DNA from: Luteitalea pratensis | GTDB lineage: Bacteria > Acidobacteriota > Vicinamibacteria > Vicinamibacterales > Vicinamibacteraceae | Assembly: GCF_001618865.1 (NCBI RefSeq) | Contig: NZ_CP015136.1 | Span: 2,577,001 to 2,641,000 of the forward strand | Length of the DNA stretch: 64,000 bases | Direction: 5' to 3' | Shown here: positions 51,318-62,382 of the stretch, piece by piece | How positions within the stretch are numbered: position 1 is the stretch's first letter | How the letters are laid out: every line of letters begins with the position of its first letter | Program-made: the position numbers and the translations under genes | The notes under the pieces: generated by a model | What the model was told of the DNA's origin: nothing | Seen by the model: only the letters and a program-made list of their open reading frames with translations | Database searches by the model: none

Positions 51318-52814
51318 TCAGTAGATCTGGCGGGTCTTGGCGACGATCACGGCCGGCGGCGTTACGCCGGCCGCCAGCATGACCTCCCTCAGGGCCGCTT
51401 CGGTCTCGGGTGACGGCTTGAAGTTGCCGAAGCGATAGCCGGCGGAAATGGCCAGCGGCGTCCAGCCGAACTCGTCCGGCTGGTTCCAAACGTCGATGCG
51501 GGCGCCTTTCGCGGCGAGCATGCGCACGGCCTTCGGCAGGTTCTTGTACGCGGCGCCGTGCATTGCGGTTTCGCCATGGCGATCGACGGCATTCGGATCC
51601 GCGCCGAGGTCGAGCAGCAATTGCAGCGCCTCGAGCACCTCGGGTTCCGTGCCGGCGTCCTCGCCCGGCGACCTGGTGGCCAGGCCGGCCGCGACCATCA
51701 GCGGCGTGCTGCCGTCGACGTTCGGGATCGACGGGTCGGCCCCTGCCTTCACGAGCACCCGCATCAACTCGGCATCGGCGGTGAGCGCGGCGAGCAGGAA
51801 TGGCGTGGCGCCGCGTTCGTCGAGGCGCGTGTTGTTCAGGTTGGGCCGCTTCGTCATCCGTGCGTTGACGTTCGCGCCGCGCGCGACGAGGGCTCGCACC
51901 AGATCGAGACTCCCGACCTTGCCCGAGCCTTCCGGCGCCGGGTCGTTGTCGCCGACACCCGGCTTGCGGACCACGGTGAGCAGGTGCAGGGCGGTGTAGC
52001 CGGCCACGTCGCCATCGGGATGGGCGCCTGCGTCGAGCAGGGCGGCCGCCACCTCGAAATGCGCATTTCTCACGGCCATTAGCAACGGCGTCGTGCCCGC
52101 TGGGGGGACGCTGCCGCCGTAGCCGCGGCGGCGCGGCCCGGGCCCGTCTGGCGGAATGGCCTCGTTGACGTCCGCTCCCGCGTGGACCAACTCCCGGACG
52201 ACGTCGAGGCGTCCCTCGCGGGCCGCGAACAGGAGGGGCGTGAAGCCGGAGGACAAGTGGGCATGCACGTCGGCCCCGGCGGCGAGTAAAGCCAGGACCA
52301 CGGGGGCATGGCCCTCGGCGGCCGCCCACATCAGCGCGGTCTGGCCCCGCCGTTCGTCCTTCGCGTCGACAGGGGCTCCGCGTGACAACAGAAGCGACAC
52401 GGTGGGCAGCGATCCGGTCCGCGCGGCGGTCATCAGCGCCGTCTCGCCCCCGGGCAGGCTGGCAGTGGCTTCGGCGCCGGCGTCCAGGAAGCGGGCCACC
52501 ATCGCCGCATTGCCGTTGGTGCAGGCGATCGACAGTGGCGTCACGCCGTAGCGATTGCTGACGGTGACGCGTGCGCCGGCCCGGATCAGCGCGTCGGCGA
52601 CGTCGAGGTCGTCGTGGTGCGCGGCCCAATGCAGCGCCGTCATACCGTCGGCCTGGGCGGCGTTGACGTCGACGTTCCGCGTCAACAAGGTCTGCACCTC
52701 TGTCCATGCGGCGCGCTCGGCGGCATCGGCCAGCATCGCGTCAGCCGCAGACGCGCGGCCGCTCGCCAGGAGCAGCAGCACCGCCGTGCCGAGAGCGACG
52801 CGTCGCAGGGTCAT
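51318..52814 (-). CDS. Exported ankyrin-repeat protein
   Basis: 498 residues from ATG 52814, starting a signal peptide (MTLRRVALGTAVLLLLASGRASA). About ten ankyrin repeats follow, for example DGMTALHWAAHHDDLDVADA, YGVTPLSIACTNGNAAMVAR, GQTALMWAAAEGHAPVVLAL, GFTPLLFAAREGRLDVVREL and HGETAMHGAAYKNLPKAVRM. The domain binds proteins. It begins 10 bp after the DUF1552 stop and is the third gene of a DUF1592-DUF1552-ankyrin operon, suggesting it scaffolds those exported proteins. Confidence 0.9.
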   Translation of the reverse strand: MTLRRVALGTAVLLLLASGRASAADAMLADAAERAAWTEVQTLLTRNVDVNAAQADGMTALHWAAHHDDLDVADALIRAGARVTVSNRYGVTPLSIACTNGNAAMVARFLDAGAEATASLPGGETALMTAARTGSLPTVSLLLSRGAPVDAKDERRGQTALMWAAAEGHAPVVLALLAAGADVHAHLSSGFTPLLFAAREGRLDVVRELVHAGADVNEAIPPDGPGPRRRGYGGSVPPAGTTPLLMAVRNAHFEVAAALLDAGAHPDGDVAGYTALHLLTVVRKPGVGDNDPAPEGSGKVGSLDLVRALVARGANVNARMTKRPNLNNTRLDERGATPFLLAALTADAELMRVLVKAGADPSIPNVDGSTPLMVAAGLATRSPGEDAGTEPEVLEALQLLLDLGADPNAVDRHGETAMHGAAYKNLPKAVRMLAAKGARIDVWNQPDEFGWTPLAISAGYRFGNFKPSPETEAALREVMLAAGVTPPAVIVAKTRQIY

Positions 52815-52824
52815 GACCGCGATC

Positions 52825-54159
52825 TCAGACGGAGAGCAACTCGTCGACACGTCCCTTGCTGTCGGCGAAGGCGTCGAGGCGCACGCCGGCGCGTTCGAGC
52901 AGCGTCAGGTGGAGGTTGGCCAGTGGCGTCGGCTCCGCGAAGCGCACGTGGCGGGCGCCCGGCTGTGAGCCGGCGCCGCCGCCGGCCACGAGGATCGGCA
53001 GGTTCACGTGGTCGTGCACGTTCGGGTCGCCCATGCCGCTGCCATACAGGTACAGCGAGTGATCCAGCAGGCTGCCGTCGCCTTCGGGTGTCGCCTGCAG
53101 CGTCTCGAGGAAGGATGCGAAGAGCGACACGTGGAACGCGTTGATCTTCGCCATCCGCGCGACCTTGTCGGGGTCGTTGCCGTGGTGGGTCAGCGGGTGG
53201 TGCGGATCGCTGACACCGATCTCGGTGTAGCTGCGGTTGCTGGTCTCACGGGCGAGCTGGAACGTGATCACCCGCGTCACGTCGCCCTGCAGCGCGAGCA
53301 CCTGCAGGTCGAACATCAGCTTCGCGTGGTCGGCGTAGGAGGCGGGGACGCCGGCGGGACGATCGAGATCGGGCAGCGGCGCGTCCGCGACCTGGGCCTC
53401 CGCCTTCTGGATGCGCCGTTCGACCTCGCGCACAGTGTCGAGATAGCCGCCCACGCGCACCCGATCCTCGGCGCCGAGTGTCCGCTGCAGCCGCGCGATG
53501 TCCTCGTGCAGCACGTCGAGGAGGCTGGCGCGCCGCCGCAGGGCAGCCTGGCGATCCGCCGCGCTGCCGCCGTCGCCGAACAGCCGTTCGAACACGAGGC
53601 GCGGGTGTGCCTCGGCCGGCAGCGGCGTGGTGGGGGAGGCCCACGACAGGTTGTTCTGGTACACGCATGCGTAGCCGTTGTCGCACTGGCCCACCGTCTG
53701 CAGGAGGTCCATCGACATCTCGAGCGACGGCAGCAGCGTCTCGCGGCCCATCTGCTGGGCGGCCACCTGGTCGATCGTGGTGCCCAGGTAGTAGTCCGTA
53801 CTCTCGGTCCACTTGGCGCGCGCGGCGCTGAGGAATGCAGCGTTGGACGTCGCGTGCGTGCCTGGATACGCGTTCTTCAACTCGAGGTTGGAGAGGATGG
53901 TCAGCTGGTTGGCCACCGGTGCCAGCGACTGCAGCGTCGGCGAGAGCGCCGTGATGCGTCCCTCGCCTGGCGGTGTCCATCGCGGCAGGTCGCAGCCCAT
54001 CGGCATGTACACGAAACCGAGGCGCCGCACCGGCCGGGCGGGCGTCTTCGCCAAAGCCGTCATCGCCGGCAGCATCGCGTCGAGCAGCGGCAGCGCCACC
54101 GACGCGCCCATGCCACGAAGGAGTGCACGCCGCGGGACCGCCTTCTTGGTGATGATCAT
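52825..54159 (-). CDS. DUF1552 protein, Tat-exported
   Basis: 444 residues from ATG 54159, which overlaps the DUF1592 stop by 4 bp (ATGA). The N-terminus has a Tat motif (PRRALLRGMGASVALPLLDA). DUF1552 hallmarks include RLGFVYMPMGCDLPRWTPPG, THATSNAAFLSAARA, DYYLGTTIDQVAAQQMG and LYLYGSGMGDPNVHDHVNLP. The family has no proven enzyme activity; it is related to the sulfatase-like DUF1501 proteins and always travels with DUF1592-type cytochromes in Planctomycetota and Acidobacteriota. Extracellular breakdown of complex carbon is the usual guess. Confidence 0.9.
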   Translation of the reverse strand: MIITKKAVPRRALLRGMGASVALPLLDAMLPAMTALAKTPARPVRRLGFVYMPMGCDLPRWTPPGEGRITALSPTLQSLAPVANQLTILSNLELKNAYPGTHATSNAAFLSAARAKWTESTDYYLGTTIDQVAAQQMGRETLLPSLEMSMDLLQTVGQCDNGYACVYQNNLSWASPTTPLPAEAHPRLVFERLFGDGGSAADRQAALRRRASLLDVLHEDIARLQRTLGAEDRVRVGGYLDTVREVERRIQKAEAQVADAPLPDLDRPAGVPASYADHAKLMFDLQVLALQGDVTRVITFQLARETSNRSYTEIGVSDPHHPLTHHGNDPDKVARMAKINAFHVSLFASFLETLQATPEGDGSLLDHSLYLYGSGMGDPNVHDHVNLPILVAGGGAGSQPGARHVRFAEPTPLANLHLTLLERAGVRLDAFADSKGRVDELLSV

Positions 54160-56546
54160 CGTGACGTCCTCATCTGGAAGGGCTCGCTCTGCACCACGCC
54201 GAGCACGATCGACGACAGGCGGTACTCGTTGGGCTGTGCCGCGCGGACGATCGCGCGCACCGCGGGCGCATCGCTCGGCTCGACGCCTCGCCCGCAGGCG
54301 TACGTGAGGAGTTTCTCGGTGATCGTCGACGCCAGCAACTCCGGACGCGCCAGCAACGCTGCTTCGAGGCCGGTGACGTCGGTGAACGTGCGGCCGTCGG
54401 GCAGGCCGCCGGAGGCATCGATCGCGACGCCGTCCTCGACCTGGCGTCGCCGGCCGACAGCGTCGAACGTCTCGAGTGACAGGCCCACGGGATCGATGAT
54501 GTTGTGACAGCGCGCGCAGGCCTTGTTCTGGCGGTGCTCGGCAAGCCGCATTCGCCCCGAGAGGCGTCCGTCGACCGTGTTGTCCTTCAGGGCCGGCACG
54601 TCGGGCGGCGGTGCGGGTGGCGGGACGCCGAGCAGGTTGTCGAGCACCCACTTGCCGCGGAGGACCGGCGAGGTACGCGTCGCATAGGAGGTCACCGTCA
54701 GGATGCTGCCCTGGCGGAGCAGGCCACCACGCATGCTCGCGTCGTCCAGGGCGACGCGGCGGAAGCGCGAGCCGTACACGTGCCCGATTCCGTAGTGCTT
54801 CGCGAGCCGCTCGTTGAGGAAGGTGTACCTCGCCCGCAGCAGGTCAAGCGCGCTGCGATCCTCGCGCAGGATGCTGTCGACGAAGAGTTCGGTCTCCTGC
54901 CGGAAGGCCTGGCGCAGGTTGTCGTCGAAGTCCGGGAACAGGCGCATGTCCGGCGTGATCGCCTCAAGGCTGCGCAGGTGCAGCCACTGCGCCGCGAAGT
55001 TGGTTACGAGGGCCCGTGACCGATCGTCGGCGAGCATGCGGCGTACCTGCCGCTCGAGCACCGCGGGTTGGCGCAGCGTGCCGTCGATCGCGACTTCCAG
55101 CAGTTCGTCGTCCGGGATGCTGCTCCAGAGGAAGAACGACAACCGCGACGCGAGTGCAAGATCGCTGATGCGATAGGGCGTGCCCGCGGGCAGGCTGGCG
55201 GGATCGGTCTCGACCCGGAACAGGAACGAGGGGCTCACCAGCACGCCCGCCAACGCCATCTCGATGCCGGCGTCGAAATCACCACTGGCCCGACCCTGGC
55301 GGTAGAGAATCATCGGGCCCTCGAGGTCGGCTGGCGTGACGGGCCGCCGGTAGGCTCGGAACATCACACCGCCCAGGATGTTCCGGGCTGCGACGCTTTC
55401 TACCGCGGGGAGCCTCTCGCGGGTGCCGAAGATGCGACGCCGGCTCGGTGTGTCCCCCGGACCGCCAGCCGCGAGTGGCCCCACGATCGAGACGGAATAG
55501 ATGGCCGGCTGCAGTCGCGGATGCCGGTACGAGTTGAAGTGTGCCTGGTACGGTTGACGCGCCGTCTCTGGCAGGTCGGAGGGCTTCTTCGGAAAGGTGA
55601 CGCCGAGCACGTGCGGGCCAGCGCGGACGGCAAGCCGTGCGGTGAGGTGGGCATCGGCTTCGCGTGCAGGCTCACCGGACGCCTGTGGACGTTGCGGTTG
55701 CACCGCGAACGTCTGAACGCTCGCCCGATCCAGCAGGACCTCGACCTCGTGCGCCTCGGTCAGCCCCTCGATCTTCTCGTCACGATCGCGCCGAAGGCGG
55801 ATCGAGATGTCGTATTCGCCATCCTGCGGGAACGTGTAGGAGACGACGGTGCCGCCGCGGGTGCCGAGTGGCAGCCCCCCGATGTGCTCTTCCTGCGTGA
55901 GGTCAGGCGCCACCCTGAATGTGTCGCCGCCAGGGGAGCGCCCGACCCGGCCGACCGCGAGCCGGCTGATCTTCTCGGCCGCCGAGAGGTAGCGTTCGAG
56001 CAGCGTCGGCGACAGTTCGCCAACGGTGACGTTGTCGAAGCCGTAGCTGGATTCGTCGGCAGGCAGCAGGGCACTGACATCGACGTCCAGGGCGAGCAGG
56101 TCGCGGATGGCGTTGCCGTATTCGGTGCGTGTCAGCCGGCGGATCGTCGCCGGTCGTCCAGGGTTGGGGTGTGCCGCCGCGGCGCGGTCGAGGTCGGTCT
56201 CGAGCGACGTGACGATGGCCTCGTACGTCGCGTCGTCCGGCCGCGGCTCGCCGATGGGCGGCATCTGGCGGGTGCGCAGCTTCTTGACGACCTTCTCCCA
56301 GGCGACGGCATGCGCGGCGACGTCGCTCGCCATGATCGCCTCGAGCGACAGATCGGCCTTCTTCGACCCGTTGTCGTGGCAATCCAGGCAGTACTGCTCG
56401 ACCAGGTCGCGGGGCGACGCAACGGCGGTGCCGACGGCTGGCGCAGCCCGGTCGGGCGCGTCTGCTGTCAGCCGCAGGCCACCGGCCGCCACGAGGCCGG
56501 CAAGCCCGACCATCGTCGCGGCCCTGCGTGTATCAAGCAGGGGCAT
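54156..56546 (-). CDS. DUF1592/DUF1588/DUF1587/DUF1585 planctomycete-type cytochrome protein
   Basis: 796 residues from ATG 56546. After a signal or anchor (TMVGLAGLVAAGGLRLTADA) comes a c-type haem motif, CLDCH (residues 53-57), then DUF1587 (TIRRLTRTEYGNAIRDLLAL), a carbohydrate-binding-like domain, DUF1595/DUF1592 (FRAYRRPVTPADLEG, ASRLSFFLWSSIPDDELLE), DUF1588 (GGLLRQGSILTVTSYATRTSPV) with a second CARCH motif, and DUF1585 at the end. The standard domain order is complete. It is the first gene of a three-gene operon. TATCAT stands 8 nt before the ATG. Confidence 0.92.
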   Translation of the reverse strand: MPLLDTRRAATMVGLAGLVAAGGLRLTADAPDRAAPAVGTAVASPRDLVEQYCLDCHDNGSKKADLSLEAIMASDVAAHAVAWEKVVKKLRTRQMPPIGEPRPDDATYEAIVTSLETDLDRAAAAHPNPGRPATIRRLTRTEYGNAIRDLLALDVDVSALLPADESSYGFDNVTVGELSPTLLERYLSAAEKISRLAVGRVGRSPGGDTFRVAPDLTQEEHIGGLPLGTRGGTVVSYTFPQDGEYDISIRLRRDRDEKIEGLTEAHEVEVLLDRASVQTFAVQPQRPQASGEPAREADAHLTARLAVRAGPHVLGVTFPKKPSDLPETARQPYQAHFNSYRHPRLQPAIYSVSIVGPLAAGGPGDTPSRRRIFGTRERLPAVESVAARNILGGVMFRAYRRPVTPADLEGPMILYRQGRASGDFDAGIEMALAGVLVSPSFLFRVETDPASLPAGTPYRISDLALASRLSFFLWSSIPDDELLEVAIDGTLRQPAVLERQVRRMLADDRSRALVTNFAAQWLHLRSLEAITPDMRLFPDFDDNLRQAFRQETELFVDSILREDRSALDLLRARYTFLNERLAKHYGIGHVYGSRFRRVALDDASMRGGLLRQGSILTVTSYATRTSPVLRGKWVLDNLLGVPPPAPPPDVPALKDNTVDGRLSGRMRLAEHRQNKACARCHNIIDPVGLSLETFDAVGRRRQVEDGVAIDASGGLPDGRTFTDVTGLEAALLARPELLASTITEKLLTYACGRGVEPSDAPAVRAIVRAAQPNEYRLSSIVLGVVQSEPFQMRTSR

Positions 56547-56585: not shown

Positions 56586-57188
56586 ATGTCCAGACTCCTG
56601 TTGTTCAGCATGGTCGCGTGCCTCGGCACGGCGACGCTGGCAGCACAGGGTCAGCCCCCTGCACCTGCGACTGCGCCGGCCGCTCCGGCACCACCACCGC
56701 AGTACTCGGCAGACCTGAAGGTCGGCGACATGGCGCCTGCCTTCTCGCTGCCGGGATCCGACGGCAAGACGCATTCACTGTCGGAGTACAAGGGAAAGAC
56801 CGTCGTGCTCGCCTGGTTCCCGAAAGCCTTCACCGGTGGTTGAACGGCCGAATGCAAGTCGCTCCGTGAGAGCGGCCCGATTCTGAAGACTTACGACATC
56901 ACGTACTTCATGGCCAGCGTCGACGACCTCGAGCAGAACACCAAGTTCGCGCAGATGCACGAGGCCGATTTCCCGATCCTCGCCGACCCGTCCAAGGCGA
57001 CGGCGATGAAGTACGGGGTCATCCGTACCGACCGGCCACCCGACCAGCAGTTCGCGGCGCGCTGGACGTTCTACATCGGTCCGGACGGAAAAATCCTCGA
57101 GATCGACAAGGCGCCCAACACGGCCACCGCCGGTCAGCTCATGATCGCGAAGCTCGACGCGCTCGGCGTCAAGAAGCGCGCGCAGTAG
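56586..57188 (+). CDS. Selenocysteine-containing peroxiredoxin, exported
   Basis: One frame from 56586 to 57188 is interrupted only by TGA at 56841-56843. Read as selenocysteine (U86) the product has 200 residues. It has a signal peptide ([20 protein letters not shown]), a proline/alanine-rich spacer, then an AhpC/TSA domain: [34 protein letters not shown]86, TAEC (C90, possible resolving cysteine), and after it [17 protein letters not shown] and [18 protein letters not shown] sits at the peroxidatic cysteine in a TxxUT motif known from selenoprotein peroxiredoxins. A SECIS-like hairpin follows (56846-56877). It would reduce peroxides in the periplasm. A nonsense mutation of TGC is the alternative; the hairpin and intact downstream frame argue against it. 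Confidence 0.85.
56846..56877 (+). promoter_or_regulatory. Bacterial SECIS-like hairpin
   Basis: Immediately downstream of the TGA, GGCC (56846-56849) pairs with GGCC (56874-56877) as a lower stem. GCTC (56861-56864) pairs with GAGC (56870-56873) as an upper stem with loop CGTGA (56865-56869). The apical GU lies 22-23 nt after the TGA, within the distance known for bacterial SECIS elements, which present G and U in the apical loop to SelB. Confidence 0.65.
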
Positions 57189-57241
57189 GTCTTCCTCGCG
57201 CCGCAGGTGTGCCTGTCACGTCGGCGGCGCGAGCCCTCGCT

Positions 57242-57247
57242 TACCAT
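57242..57247 (+). promoter_or_regulatory. Probable -10 box of the cupin gene
   Basis: TACCAT, 7 nt before ATG 57255. It overlaps an earlier in-frame ATG at 57246. Confidence 0.45.
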
Positions 57248-57254
57248 GGCGGCC

Positions 57255-57662
57255 ATGTCCGAACCCACCGACATCGTCATCGACGTCGACCGCTCCGCCG
57301 CCACATTGCCGGACGGGGTCATCGGCCTGGGGTCGATCTCCGCTGACGTGCAGGACGGCTGTCGCGTCTTCGTCCATTACAACGGGCCGACCGATCAGCT
57401 GTCTGGCATGTGTGCCGGCATGGCCGTGCTCGATCCGGGCGCATCGCCGCATCCGCCGCACAGGCACCCCGAAGAGGAGATCCTCGTGATCGCCGGCGGC
57501 ACCGGCGAAATCGACTGCGACGGCACGGTCACCCAGGTGGGCCCGGGGTCGATGATGTTCTGCGCCGGCGGCGTGTTGCATGGCATCGTCAACACCGGGC
57601 CGGTGCCACTCACGTTCTACTGGTCCAAGTGGTCGGCGCGCCCCGGCCTGCCGACGCCGTGA
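57255..57662 (+). CDS. Cupin-domain protein
   Basis: 135 residues, a single small cupin barrel. Motif 1 is PHPPHRHPEEEILVIAGGTG (two histidines and a glutamate for a metal) and motif 2 is GPGSMMFCAGGVLHGIVNTG with the last histidine. No signal peptide is present. Such proteins serve as isomerases, dioxygenases or binding proteins; nothing nearby settles the choice. It lies 66 bp downstream of the peroxiredoxin with its own predicted promoter. Confidence 0.8.
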   Translation: MSEPTDIVIDVDRSAATLPDGVIGLGSISADVQDGCRVFVHYNGPTDQLSGMCAGMAVLDPGASPHPPHRHPEEEILVIAGGTGEIDCDGTVTQVGPGSMMFCAGGVLHGIVNTGPVPLTFYWSKWSARPGLPTP

Positions 57663-59903: not shown

Positions 59904-61922
59904 TCAGCGCGCGGCAACCAAGGGCAAGGATCGCCGTCGCTCGCCGGTGGCGTCGAAGATCGCGGCGGCGAGGGCGGGGGCGGTCAGCGTGATCGGTGAT
60001 TCGCCTGCGCCCGCGGGCTCGATGTCCCGGCGGTCGATCAGCTGCACGTCCAGGTCAGGCAGGTCGCGAAAGCGTGGCACCCGGTACTCGGAGAGACGGC
60101 GGGTGCGCTGCGTGGTCCCGTCGTACGTCACCTGTTCCCAGAGCGCGCCGCCGAGCCCCTGGATGATCGCGCCGGTCATCTGGTTCTGCAGCGCATCCGG
60201 GTTCAGTGCCGCGCCGAAATCGCCGGTGGCGACCATGCGCACCACCCGCACGTCGGTCCCCGAGACCTCGACCTCCACGAACAGTGCCAGCCGCGCGTCC
60301 TTCTCGAGGTTGCAACTCATGCCGACGCCGCGTCTCGAGCCGGTCCGCTCGCGCGTGGGCGCACTCTTGCGGGCCGCAGCATCAGCCTTCCAGCCGAAGC
60401 GAGCGGCCGATCGTTCGATCACCTCGCGGAGCCGCGCATCGGTGATGTTGCGCAGGCGGAACGCGACCGGGTCGAGGCCCAGCGTCGCCGCCCACTCGTC
60501 CATGTGCGACTCGAGCGCGAAGTTGTTCGCCACCGCCGCGAGCGATCGATAGCTGCCTTGCCGGACGTCGGACTGCGTGCGGTAGAAGCCGACCCAGTGA
60601 TGCGCGATGTCGTACTGCGGGGCCAGGCCGGCCGCGCCGCTGTTGTAGTTGGCAAAGCGCATGGCCACCAGGCGGCCGCCCGCATCCACGCCGCTCTCCA
60701 CGTCGAGCAATCCCGCCGGGCGCGCGTAACTGCAGGTGAACTCTTCCTCCCGCGTCCAGGCGACGCGGACCGGCGCGCCCGCGAGGCGCGACAACCGCGC
60801 CGCCTCCACCTCGCATTCGCCCCGCTGCTTGCCGCCATAGGCGCCCCCGGAATCCGCCGCGACGATGCGGACGCGCGTCTCCGGCACGTCGAGAGCCTTT
60901 GCGACTTCCTGACGGCACAGGAACGGCGCCTGTACGCCCGAATGCACGGTGACCCCGTCGTCGTTCCACTCGGCGATCGCGGCGCGTGGCTCGAGCGGCA
61001 CGTGGGCGATCGGCGCGACCTGATAGACCGACGATTGCCGCGCAACCGCTCCCGCCAACCCGGCGACCACGTCGCCTCGCCTCAGTAGTGGCGGGTAGCG
61101 TGCGCGTGGCTGCTCAACCGGTTCCACCGCGGTTTTTCGGAAGAGCGCGACCCAATCGCCCTGCGGTGTCAGCGACTCGGGAGTCCACTCGGCAGTCACG
61201 AGGGCAGCCGCGCGCCGCGCCGTCGCCATGTCGCCAGCAACAGTGGCGAGCAGGTCACCGTCGCGCAAGACGCGGACGCCTGGCAGTCGCTCGGCGGCGC
61301 TCGCATCGAACGTCTTGAGCGTCGCCTTGTGATTCGGACTGCGCACCACGGCGGCTTGGCGCAGGCCGGGCACGCGTCGATCGGAGGGATAAGCCTTTGC
61401 GCCAGTGACGATGGCGAGCCCCGTGACGTTGGGCACCGACTGGCCAAGCGTTCGCCAGGCTGCTGGAGCCACGAGGCCATCCGGGGTGGCGGCGCGCACG
61501 GCGCGCACGGCCGCTGCCGCCTTCCGGATCACCGGCACGGTGACCGGCGTCGTGATGCTTGCCCATGTGCCGCCGTCATCGGGACACAGCCGGGTGTCGC
61601 CCATGACCAGGACGACGCGATCCAGGGGAACCCCCAACTCCTCGGCAAACGCCTGCGTGAGCAGGGTGCGCGAGCCCTGGCCCATGTCCATCTTGCCCGT
61701 GAAGGCGCGGTACGTGCCGTCGTCGCTGACCTGCACGCGCACGGGCACATCGACGCCCTGCGCACGTACGGTCACGAGCAACAACATGCCGCCGCCGAGG
61801 GCCTTCAGGAACGCACGCCGATCGGGCGTGAGATCGCCGAGCGCGTCGACGACGGTGTACGTCTCCGGCTCGAGGTCCTCGTCGAACCGACGCTTGTATG
61901 CGGCGCGCAGATCCTCAGCCAC
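59904..61922 (-). CDS. Molybdenum hydroxylase large subunit (IorB/xanthine dehydrogenase family)
   Basis: 672 residues from GTG 61922, overlapping the small-subunit stop by 8 bp. A twin-arginine-like segment (DRRAFLKALGGGMLLLVTV) stands at residues ~35-53. Molybdopterin-binding motifs are TGKMDMGQGSRTLLTQAFAE, PLEPRAAIAEW, SGGAYGGKQRGECEVEAARL and RQGSYRSLAAVANN; the catalytic glutamate lies in GAGESPITLTAPAL. Together with the 2Fe-2S subunit it hydroxylates an N-heterocycle or aldehyde, passing electrons to a cytochrome. No FAD subunit is present, typical of the isoquinoline oxidoreductase type. Confidence 0.9.
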   Translation of the reverse strand: MAEDLRAAYKRRFDEDLEPETYTVVDALGDLTPDRRAFLKALGGGMLLLVTVRAQGVDVPVRVQVSDDGTYRAFTGKMDMGQGSRTLLTQAFAEELGVPLDRVVLVMGDTRLCPDDGGTWASITTPVTVPVIRKAAAAVRAVRAATPDGLVAPAAWRTLGQSVPNVTGLAIVTGAKAYPSDRRVPGLRQAAVVRSPNHKATLKTFDASAAERLPGVRVLRDGDLLATVAGDMATARRAAALVTAEWTPESLTPQGDWVALFRKTAVEPVEQPRARYPPLLRRGDVVAGLAGAVARQSSVYQVAPIAHVPLEPRAAIAEWNDDGVTVHSGVQAPFLCRQEVAKALDVPETRVRIVAADSGGAYGGKQRGECEVEAARLSRLAGAPVRVAWTREEEFTCSYARPAGLLDVESGVDAGGRLVAMRFANYNSGAAGLAPQYDIAHHWVGFYRTQSDVRQGSYRSLAAVANNFALESHMDEWAATLGLDPVAFRLRNITDARLREVIERSAARFGWKADAAARKSAPTRERTGSRRGVGMSCNLEKDARLALFVEVEVSGTDVRVVRMVATGDFGAALNPDALQNQMTGAIIQGLGGALWEQVTYDGTTQRTRRLSEYRVPRFRDLPDLDVQLIDRRDIEPAGAGESPITLTAPALAAAIFDATGERRRSLPLVAAR

Positions 61923-62382
61923 GGCGCTCCTGCCGCGCGAGGGCGTCCCCCGCCGCTCGCACCGCACGCATGATGCGTGGGTACGTGCCACAGCGGCACA
62001 GGTGTCCGTCGAGCGCATGGCGAATCTCGTCGTCGGTCGGGCGCGGCGTGCGGGCGAGGAGCGCAACGGCGCCCATGATCATGCCCGGCGTGCAGAAGCC
62101 GCACTGGAACGCCTGGGCATCGAGGAAAGCCTGCTGGACCGGGTGCAGGCGGTCTCCCGTGGCCAGTCCTTCGATGGTGGTCACCGCCCGGGCGGCGCTG
62201 GCTTGCGTGAGGCACGCGCGCACCGCCTTGTCGTCCGCGAGGACCGTGCAGCTGCCACATTGGCCCTCGCCGCACCCGTACTTCGTGCCCGTCAGCGTGG
62301 CATGGTCTCGCAGGAGGTCCAGCAAGGTGGTCCCGTCGGGGACCTCGCCGCTCCACGCACGACCGTTCACCGTGAGCGTCAT
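61915..62382 (-). CDS. Molybdenum hydroxylase 2Fe-2S small subunit (IorA type)
   Basis: 155 residues from ATG 62382 (MTLTVNGRAWSGEVPDGTTL). The plant-type 2Fe-2S motif is YGCGEGQCGSCTVL, and the second cluster ligands are QCGFCTPGMIMGA and GHLCRCGTYPRI, the usual C-x2-C...C-x-C arrangement. It relays electrons from the molybdenum centre. An ATG at 62400 is an alternative start; TACCGT 7 nt before 62382 supports the later one. No signal is seen; it would be exported with the Tat-bearing large subunit. Confidence 0.93.
   Translation of the reverse strand: MTLTVNGRAWSGEVPDGTTLLDLLRDHATLTGTKYGCGEGQCGSCTVLADDKAVRACLTQASAARAVTTIEGLATGDRLHPVQQAFLDAQAFQCGFCTPGMIMGAVALLARTPRPTDDEIRHALDGHLCRCGTYPRIMRAVRAAGDALARQERRG

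Follow-up and report, generated by a model that had tools for sequence, protein, structure and literature searches.

A predicted exported peroxiredoxin of Luteitalea pratensis with selenocysteine as the putative peroxidatic residue

The stretch of Luteitalea pratensis DNA analysed here (the window; 64,000 nucleotides) contains a peroxiredoxin-like reading frame with an in-frame TGA, raising the question of whether this codon terminates a short protein or is read as selenocysteine (Sec). The initial annotation favored Sec, proposing that the frame is intact on either side of the TGA, that the codon falls on the peroxidatic position, and that standard gene calling would cut the gene in two. We found that under the standard code the frame is indeed split into ORFs of 85 and 92 amino acids, the second of which starts at 56910, and the coordinates of the frame on either side of TGA 56841-56843 proved to be exact. 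Reading through gives a product of 200 residues with a single recoded codon, residue 86, in the motif P-K-A-F-T-G-G-U-T-A-E-C (Table 1). Judged by comparison with its relatives, 56586-57188 is a real gene of the AhpC/TSA peroxiredoxin type in which the in-frame TGA is read through, in substantial agreement with the initial annotation, and we consider it very likely that it encodes an exported, monomeric-type peroxiredoxin with Sec as the peroxidatic residue, both Sec insertion and activity being predicted.

Table 1. Positions of the predicted Sec-peroxiredoxin gene, its parts and its neighbors in the window, and of the SelD gene elsewhere in the same genome.
Feature	Position	Strand	Residues and basis
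Whole Sec-peroxiredoxin coding sequence (predicted)	56586..57188	+	ATG 56586, TGA at codon 86, stop TAG 57186-57188; PF00578 E 2.3e-29
Signal-peptide-like N-terminus	56586..56645	+	residues 1-20; cleavage point guessed
Pro/Ala-rich linker	56646..56702	+	residues 21-39; sequence
AhpC/TSA peroxiredoxin domain	56721..57098	+	residues 46-171; PF00578 102 bits over 26; predicted fold pLDDT 93.8
TGA predicted to be read as Sec, peroxidatic position	56841..56843	+	residue 86; aligned to peroxidatic Cys of 2ywn; TGA/Cys codon in 210/210 loci
TGC, Cys90, likely resolving residue	56853..56855	+	U86 + 4; Cys at +4 in 164/164 distinct homologous cores
Bacterial SECIS hairpin (predicted)	56858..56876	+	arms 56858-56864 / 56870-56876, loop CGTGA 56865-56869, apical GU 56866-56867
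Ankyrin-repeat protein	51321-52850	-	
DUF1552 protein, after PSD/PSCyt gene	52828-54651	-	
PSD/PSCyt-domain protein, divergent neighbor	54159-56546	-	DUF1592, 1588, 1587, 1585, 1595, cytochrome
Cupin protein, directly downstream	57207-57662	+	
Molybdopterin-binding dehydrogenase subunit	59907-62066	-	
SelD of the same genome	L100 1390-2427; C1:7469558-7470478	- (L100)	internal TGA at codon 13

Scanning genome contigs yielded 398 relatives, and in the best 80 of these 398, which were analysed, the codon at the site was TGA in 75 and a Cys codon in five (three TGC and two TGT), four of the five Cys rows being labelled Planctomycetes and one Acidobacteria. The class of the window was sampled with 126 genomes, each at least 90% complete, and 106 of them gave a match at E 1e-30 or better. 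There were 131 matches, and the 130 loci that were looked at carried TGA in 89 cases and TGC in 41, with no other codon. The exchange between U and C at residue 86, which the initial annotation had recommended looking for, is thus seen directly in both sets. The site codon was TGA, TGC or TGT in 210 of 210 loci, a figure in which the 80 relatives and the 130 class loci share genes (L009 and L108 give identical counts) and are not independent. All 164 TGA-form loci remain open for 89 to 120 codons past the TGA, and the 114 downstream codons compared with the near relative L107 showed 7, 4 and 28 changes at codon positions 1, 2 and 3, respectively, so that the frame decay named in the initial annotation as an argument against Sec was absent from the relatives, the changes being concentrated at third positions. 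Since the site codon is always one of these three and the frame is open after the TGA in all TGA-form loci, the TGA is not there by chance. A true stop, leaving either a pseudogene or a truncated protein of 85 residues followed by a separate ORF, fits the standard code, in which the frame stops at 56843, but conflicts with the open downstream frames, with the third-position bias of their conserved codons and with a site at which most class loci have TGA and none has a different stop or an arbitrary codon, and its probability is practically negligible.

Counted by genome, the class sample comprised 71 genomes with the TGA form only, seven with both forms, 28 with the Cys form only and 20 without a match. 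The seven genomes with both forms include G027, G043, G050, G081 and G098, and in G098 and G054 two gene copies adjoin on one contig.

The genome of the window, a single contig of 7,480,314 bases, contains all four components for which a search had been advised: tRNA-Sec (65.7 bits; tRNA-SeC with anticodon tca by ARAGORN), SelB (347 bits with the C-terminal part, against a cut-off of 242), SelA (398 bits) and SelD (325 bits). Both SelB and tRNA-Sec, whose absence had been put forward as an argument against Sec, are therefore present. The SelD of this genome is itself TGA-coded, with ACAGU in MKRLTDYAACAGUASKL, and is a second Sec gene lying outside the window. In the class genomes, tRNA-Sec was counted only at 56 bits or more, a cut that we set because a 49.5-bit match in the window's own genome is a tRNA-Ser according to ARAGORN. 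On this basis tRNA-Sec was found in 98 of the 126 genomes (105 with the cut-off of the search tool itself) and SelA in 103; the search for SelB covered 26 of the 126. All 78 genomes with the TGA form have at least one of SelA, SelB and tRNA-Sec. SelA is present in 75 of them, and the other three (G023, G050 and G070) have SelB, accompanied in two cases by tRNA-Sec; taken singly, tRNA-Sec at 56 bits is missing from eight TGA-form genomes and SelA from three. None of the 17 genomes that lack SelA, SelB and tRNA-Sec carries the TGA form (13 have the Cys form only and four have no gene), and 15 class genomes that bear the machinery have the Cys form only. Fisher's exact test of the TGA form against the machinery gave 2.4e-9, a value that ignores kinship; a kinship-aware test, with two usable pairs on supported branches, had no power.

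The initial annotation had also described a hairpin with an apical GU at 22-23 nucleotides after the TGA. The comparison of relatives confirmed the hairpin and its GU, which lies at the 23rd-24th nucleotide after the TGA, the discrepancy being one of counting. The hairpin, GUCGCUC-CGUGA-GAGCGGC (in DNA, GTCGCTC-CGTGA-GAGCGGC), has 7 bp and spans nucleotides 18 to 36 counted from the T of the TGA. A stem of at least 5 bp round the loop was found in 106 of 111 distinct TGA sites, as compared with a mean of 40% and a largest value of 52% in 200 codon resamples that preserved each protein sequence and the codon use of the family; five of the 111 showed merely a 3-bp stem at the expected place. The loop contained GU in 99 of the 111 TGA sites versus one of 46 Cys sites. 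The Arg codon that bears this GU is CGT in 97 of the 111, and CGT accounts for 93% of the rows with Arg at this codon against 17% expected. Covariation was examined with 500 shuffles in the 92 sites that share the 5-nt loop register. The outermost pair, 18-36, occurs as G-C (59), C-G (15), A-T (12) and also as T-A and G-T, and was paired in 88 of 92 sites, compared with 61 in the best shuffle. Pairs 21-33, 22-32 and 23-31 also beat all 500 shuffles, by one or two sequences only, and the other three of the seven stem pairs (19-35, 20-34 and 24-30) showed no covariation above the 500 shuffles. In 17 of the other 19 TGA sites the 3' arm lies three bases further on, giving an 8-nt loop (e.g., L048 3127-3172), and the remaining two pair in the ordinary register; the arm has shifted with no gap opening in the protein, which argues for selection at the RNA level. 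In these alignments the predicted hairpin is conserved well beyond the demands of the protein, and covaries. Folding of single sequences gave nothing exceptional for the hairpin region (z -0.80 and -0.70), and five such folds, with z from -0.80 to +0.69, are of no use as proof of a SECIS, so that the hairpin rests on comparison and not on folding energy. An Rfam scan of 56600-57100 gave no match up to E 1.

Among the Cys sites, a stem of at least 5 bp was present in 24 of 46, above their own resamples (mean 25%, largest 41%), suggesting that inheritance or a sequence constraint accounts for part of the stem signal. What is lost in the aligned Cys forms is the GU loop. GU is absent from the expected place in the loop at 10 to 12 of the 111 TGA sites, and seven of 12 carry CGG there. 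Examples of such sites are L015 3193-3238, L017 and L022. Decoding of the TGA as Trp or Cys, through a suppressor tRNA or a changed code, would accord with Cys as the alternative residue at site 86; it is, however, extremely unlikely in view of SelA, SelB, SelD and tRNA-Sec in the own genome, of a GU hairpin that accompanies TGA and not Cys codons, and of the lack of a TGA form in the 17 genomes without SelA, SelB and tRNA-Sec.

With Sec as the preferred reading, the protein can be considered as an enzyme. Besides PF00578, Redoxin (PF08534) matches the read-through protein with E 3.2e-22, and none of the 12 NCBIfam models listed reaches its cut-off. The structure was predicted with a pLDDT of 93.8 and a pTM of 0.89, and a structure search gave Bcp1, BcpB, PrxQ and AhpE as the nearest solved folds. 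The placement of the TGA on the peroxidatic position was borne out by alignment with the peroxidatic Cys of a solved Sulfolobus peroxiredoxin (2ywn). P79, T83, U/C86 and R159 (P40, T44, C47 and R120 in the A1 numbering) are invariant in 47 aligned sequences, and the PxxxTxxC/U motif and catalytic Arg of the peroxiredoxin superfamily are present. U86 and C90 lie in one predicted helix (A1 residues 45-56, protein residues 84-95). When each core was counted from 42 residues before the site onward, U/C86 and C90 were the sole redox residues in 159 of the 164 distinct cores, and five had one more Cys. The position and conservation of C90 suggest that it probably resolves U86, a residue and role that the initial annotation had not pointed out.

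Among exported proteins with the AhpC/TSA fold, those of the ResA/TlpA type are oxidoreductases, and the ResA model NF002854 gave a weak match (39.4 bits versus a cut-off of 170), which would suit a role as thiol-disulfide oxidoreductase or as peroxide sensor on a peroxiredoxin fold rather than as bulk peroxidase. Against this stand the invariant peroxidatic set, PxxxTxxU with R159, the lack of any CxxC-type motif in the protein, and best sequence and fold matches to Bcp/PrxQ and AhpE; we regard this alternative as unlikely.

TxxU Sec-peroxiredoxins were reportedly first described by Sohling et al. in 2001, as an enzyme of E. acidaminophilum. The group is treated as a recognised selenoprotein family in the available text of several papers (PMC1794560, PMC2398784, PMC5029168, PMC13188914), and for Acidobacteria a count of three selenoprotein families was available as early as 2006 (Zhang et al. 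2006, PMC1794560). The gene belongs to this published family, with which it shares the Pfam family PF00578, the T-x-x-U motif in which Sec takes the peroxidatic position, and PxxxTxxU (Zhang et al. 2006, PMC1794560; GOS survey 2008, PMC2398784; review 2026, PMC13188914). An export signal, UxxxC spacing and Vicinamibacteria do not figure in the available portions of these descriptions, although the present gene may be among the sequences counted there, and searches of openly licensed papers gave no description of this Sec-peroxiredoxin family in Vicinamibacteria. What may be new is the export signal together with the UxxxC spacing.

The best structural and sequence neighbors of the protein are PrxQ/BCP enzymes (D. 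radiodurans DR0846, PMC6590489; S. solfataricus Bcp1, PDB 3drn), which have the same fold, the same catalytic residues and a second redox residue in the same helix. PrxQ is defined there by CxxxxC (PMC6590489), with a spacing of +5, in contrast to UxxxC (+4) in all 164 distinct cores here, and the protein further differs in its signal-peptide-like N-terminus and in missing the cut-offs of the PrxQ equivalog models in NCBIfam (NF006960, 75.8 of 140 bits; NF053650, 65.8 of 260 bits). The second Cys of the solved 2ywn chain is also at +5 in a gapless alignment. Within the same genome, the nearest paralogue (L104, C1:4352052-4352477; 35% identity) is a canonical CxxxxC PrxQ, which reads SGCTKEACGFRD, with +5 spacing, and has no export-like N-terminus. 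M. tuberculosis AhpE (PDB 4x0x and 1xvw) shows a very similar fold (Z 21.9 and 21.7) at about 30% identity, but is described as 1-Cys, whereas the window protein has the invariant second redox residue C90. PrxU (NF040737) and Prx-SUH (NF045827) are likewise peroxiredoxin models with Sec names, the latter being a CxxU type in the available text of the 2026 review (PMC13188914); the window protein is far under the cut-off of both (41 of 270 and 19.7 of 298 bits, respectively).

Export is suggested by a single feature, the N-terminus; the enzyme probably works outside the inner membrane. By a crude hydrophobicity measure that picks the best start, 198 of the 209 homologues for which a candidate start exists have a hydrophobic N-terminus, as compared with eight of 210 in an internal-start control. 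A cytosolic enzyme, or one anchored in the membrane by an uncleaved N-terminal helix and not freed to the periplasm, would be in keeping with a cleavage site that is not a textbook AxA, and Cys at residue 12, following MVA, comes near to, without being, a standard lipobox. However, a short basic n-region, a hydrophobic core and a polar Pro/Ala-rich stretch recur across the homologues at the frequency given above, C12 is not conserved in the homologues inspected as examples, and the same genome encodes a cytosolic PrxQ as a separate protein, which lacks this type of N-terminus. We therefore hold a cytosolic or anchored enzyme to be improbable, and prefer the exported form.

For this exported Sec enzyme, the following course may be proposed. 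On the mRNA, SelB with Sec-tRNA would bind the hairpin loop, and the TGA would be decoded by insertion of Sec. The chain would then be exported and its signal removed, the general secretion route being probable because no twin-arginine motif was seen in the N-terminus. The selenolate of U86, held by P79, T83 and R159, would reduce peroxide and become a selenenic acid, which C90, one helix turn on, would resolve as an intramolecular selenenylsulfide, to be reduced in turn by an extracytoplasmic thiol reductase as a putative external thiol donor. The likely role, as predicted from the sequence, is the clearing of H2O2 or organic hydroperoxides in the periplasm. More tentatively, it is possible that these proteins form a distinct extracytoplasmic selenoperoxidase subfamily typical of Vicinamibacteria, in which Sec travels in an unfolded chain along the general secretion route and the enzyme works with two residues, UxxxC, whose selenenylsulfide closes across a single helix turn, with less local unfolding needed than in a CxxxxC PrxQ.

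The PSD/PSCyt and DUF1552 genes beside the locus form a pair that we take to be typical of Planctomycete-style cytochrome operons. A tblastn search of three window neighbors against the best-80 loci, with flanks of up to 3 kb, gave a single match, a DUF1592-type protein at L009. A GC3-based scan of the window for further TGA read-through frames gave two weak places (40871 on the + strand and 37397 on the - strand) but missed the known site, and is therefore uninformative.

A tree of 137 rows made by a quick method, in which 47 of 134 inner branches are poorly supported, required at least seven changes between Sec and Cys, as compared with a shuffled mean of 38, without indicating their direction. 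A cluster of 32 rows carries Cys throughout, and genomes that bear the machinery are among its members. That some genomes have both a Sec and a Cys form may point to a division of labor.

Genes of this kind are split in two by standard gene calling. The soil lineage to which the gene belongs is a common one with aerobic representatives, and appears to spend Sec on a predicted envelope peroxidase. The naturally occurring Sec and Cys forms, with 89 and 41 of the 130 class loci, respectively, and both in seven genomes, make up a series that offers material on the benefit of Sec over Cys in an exposed enzyme.
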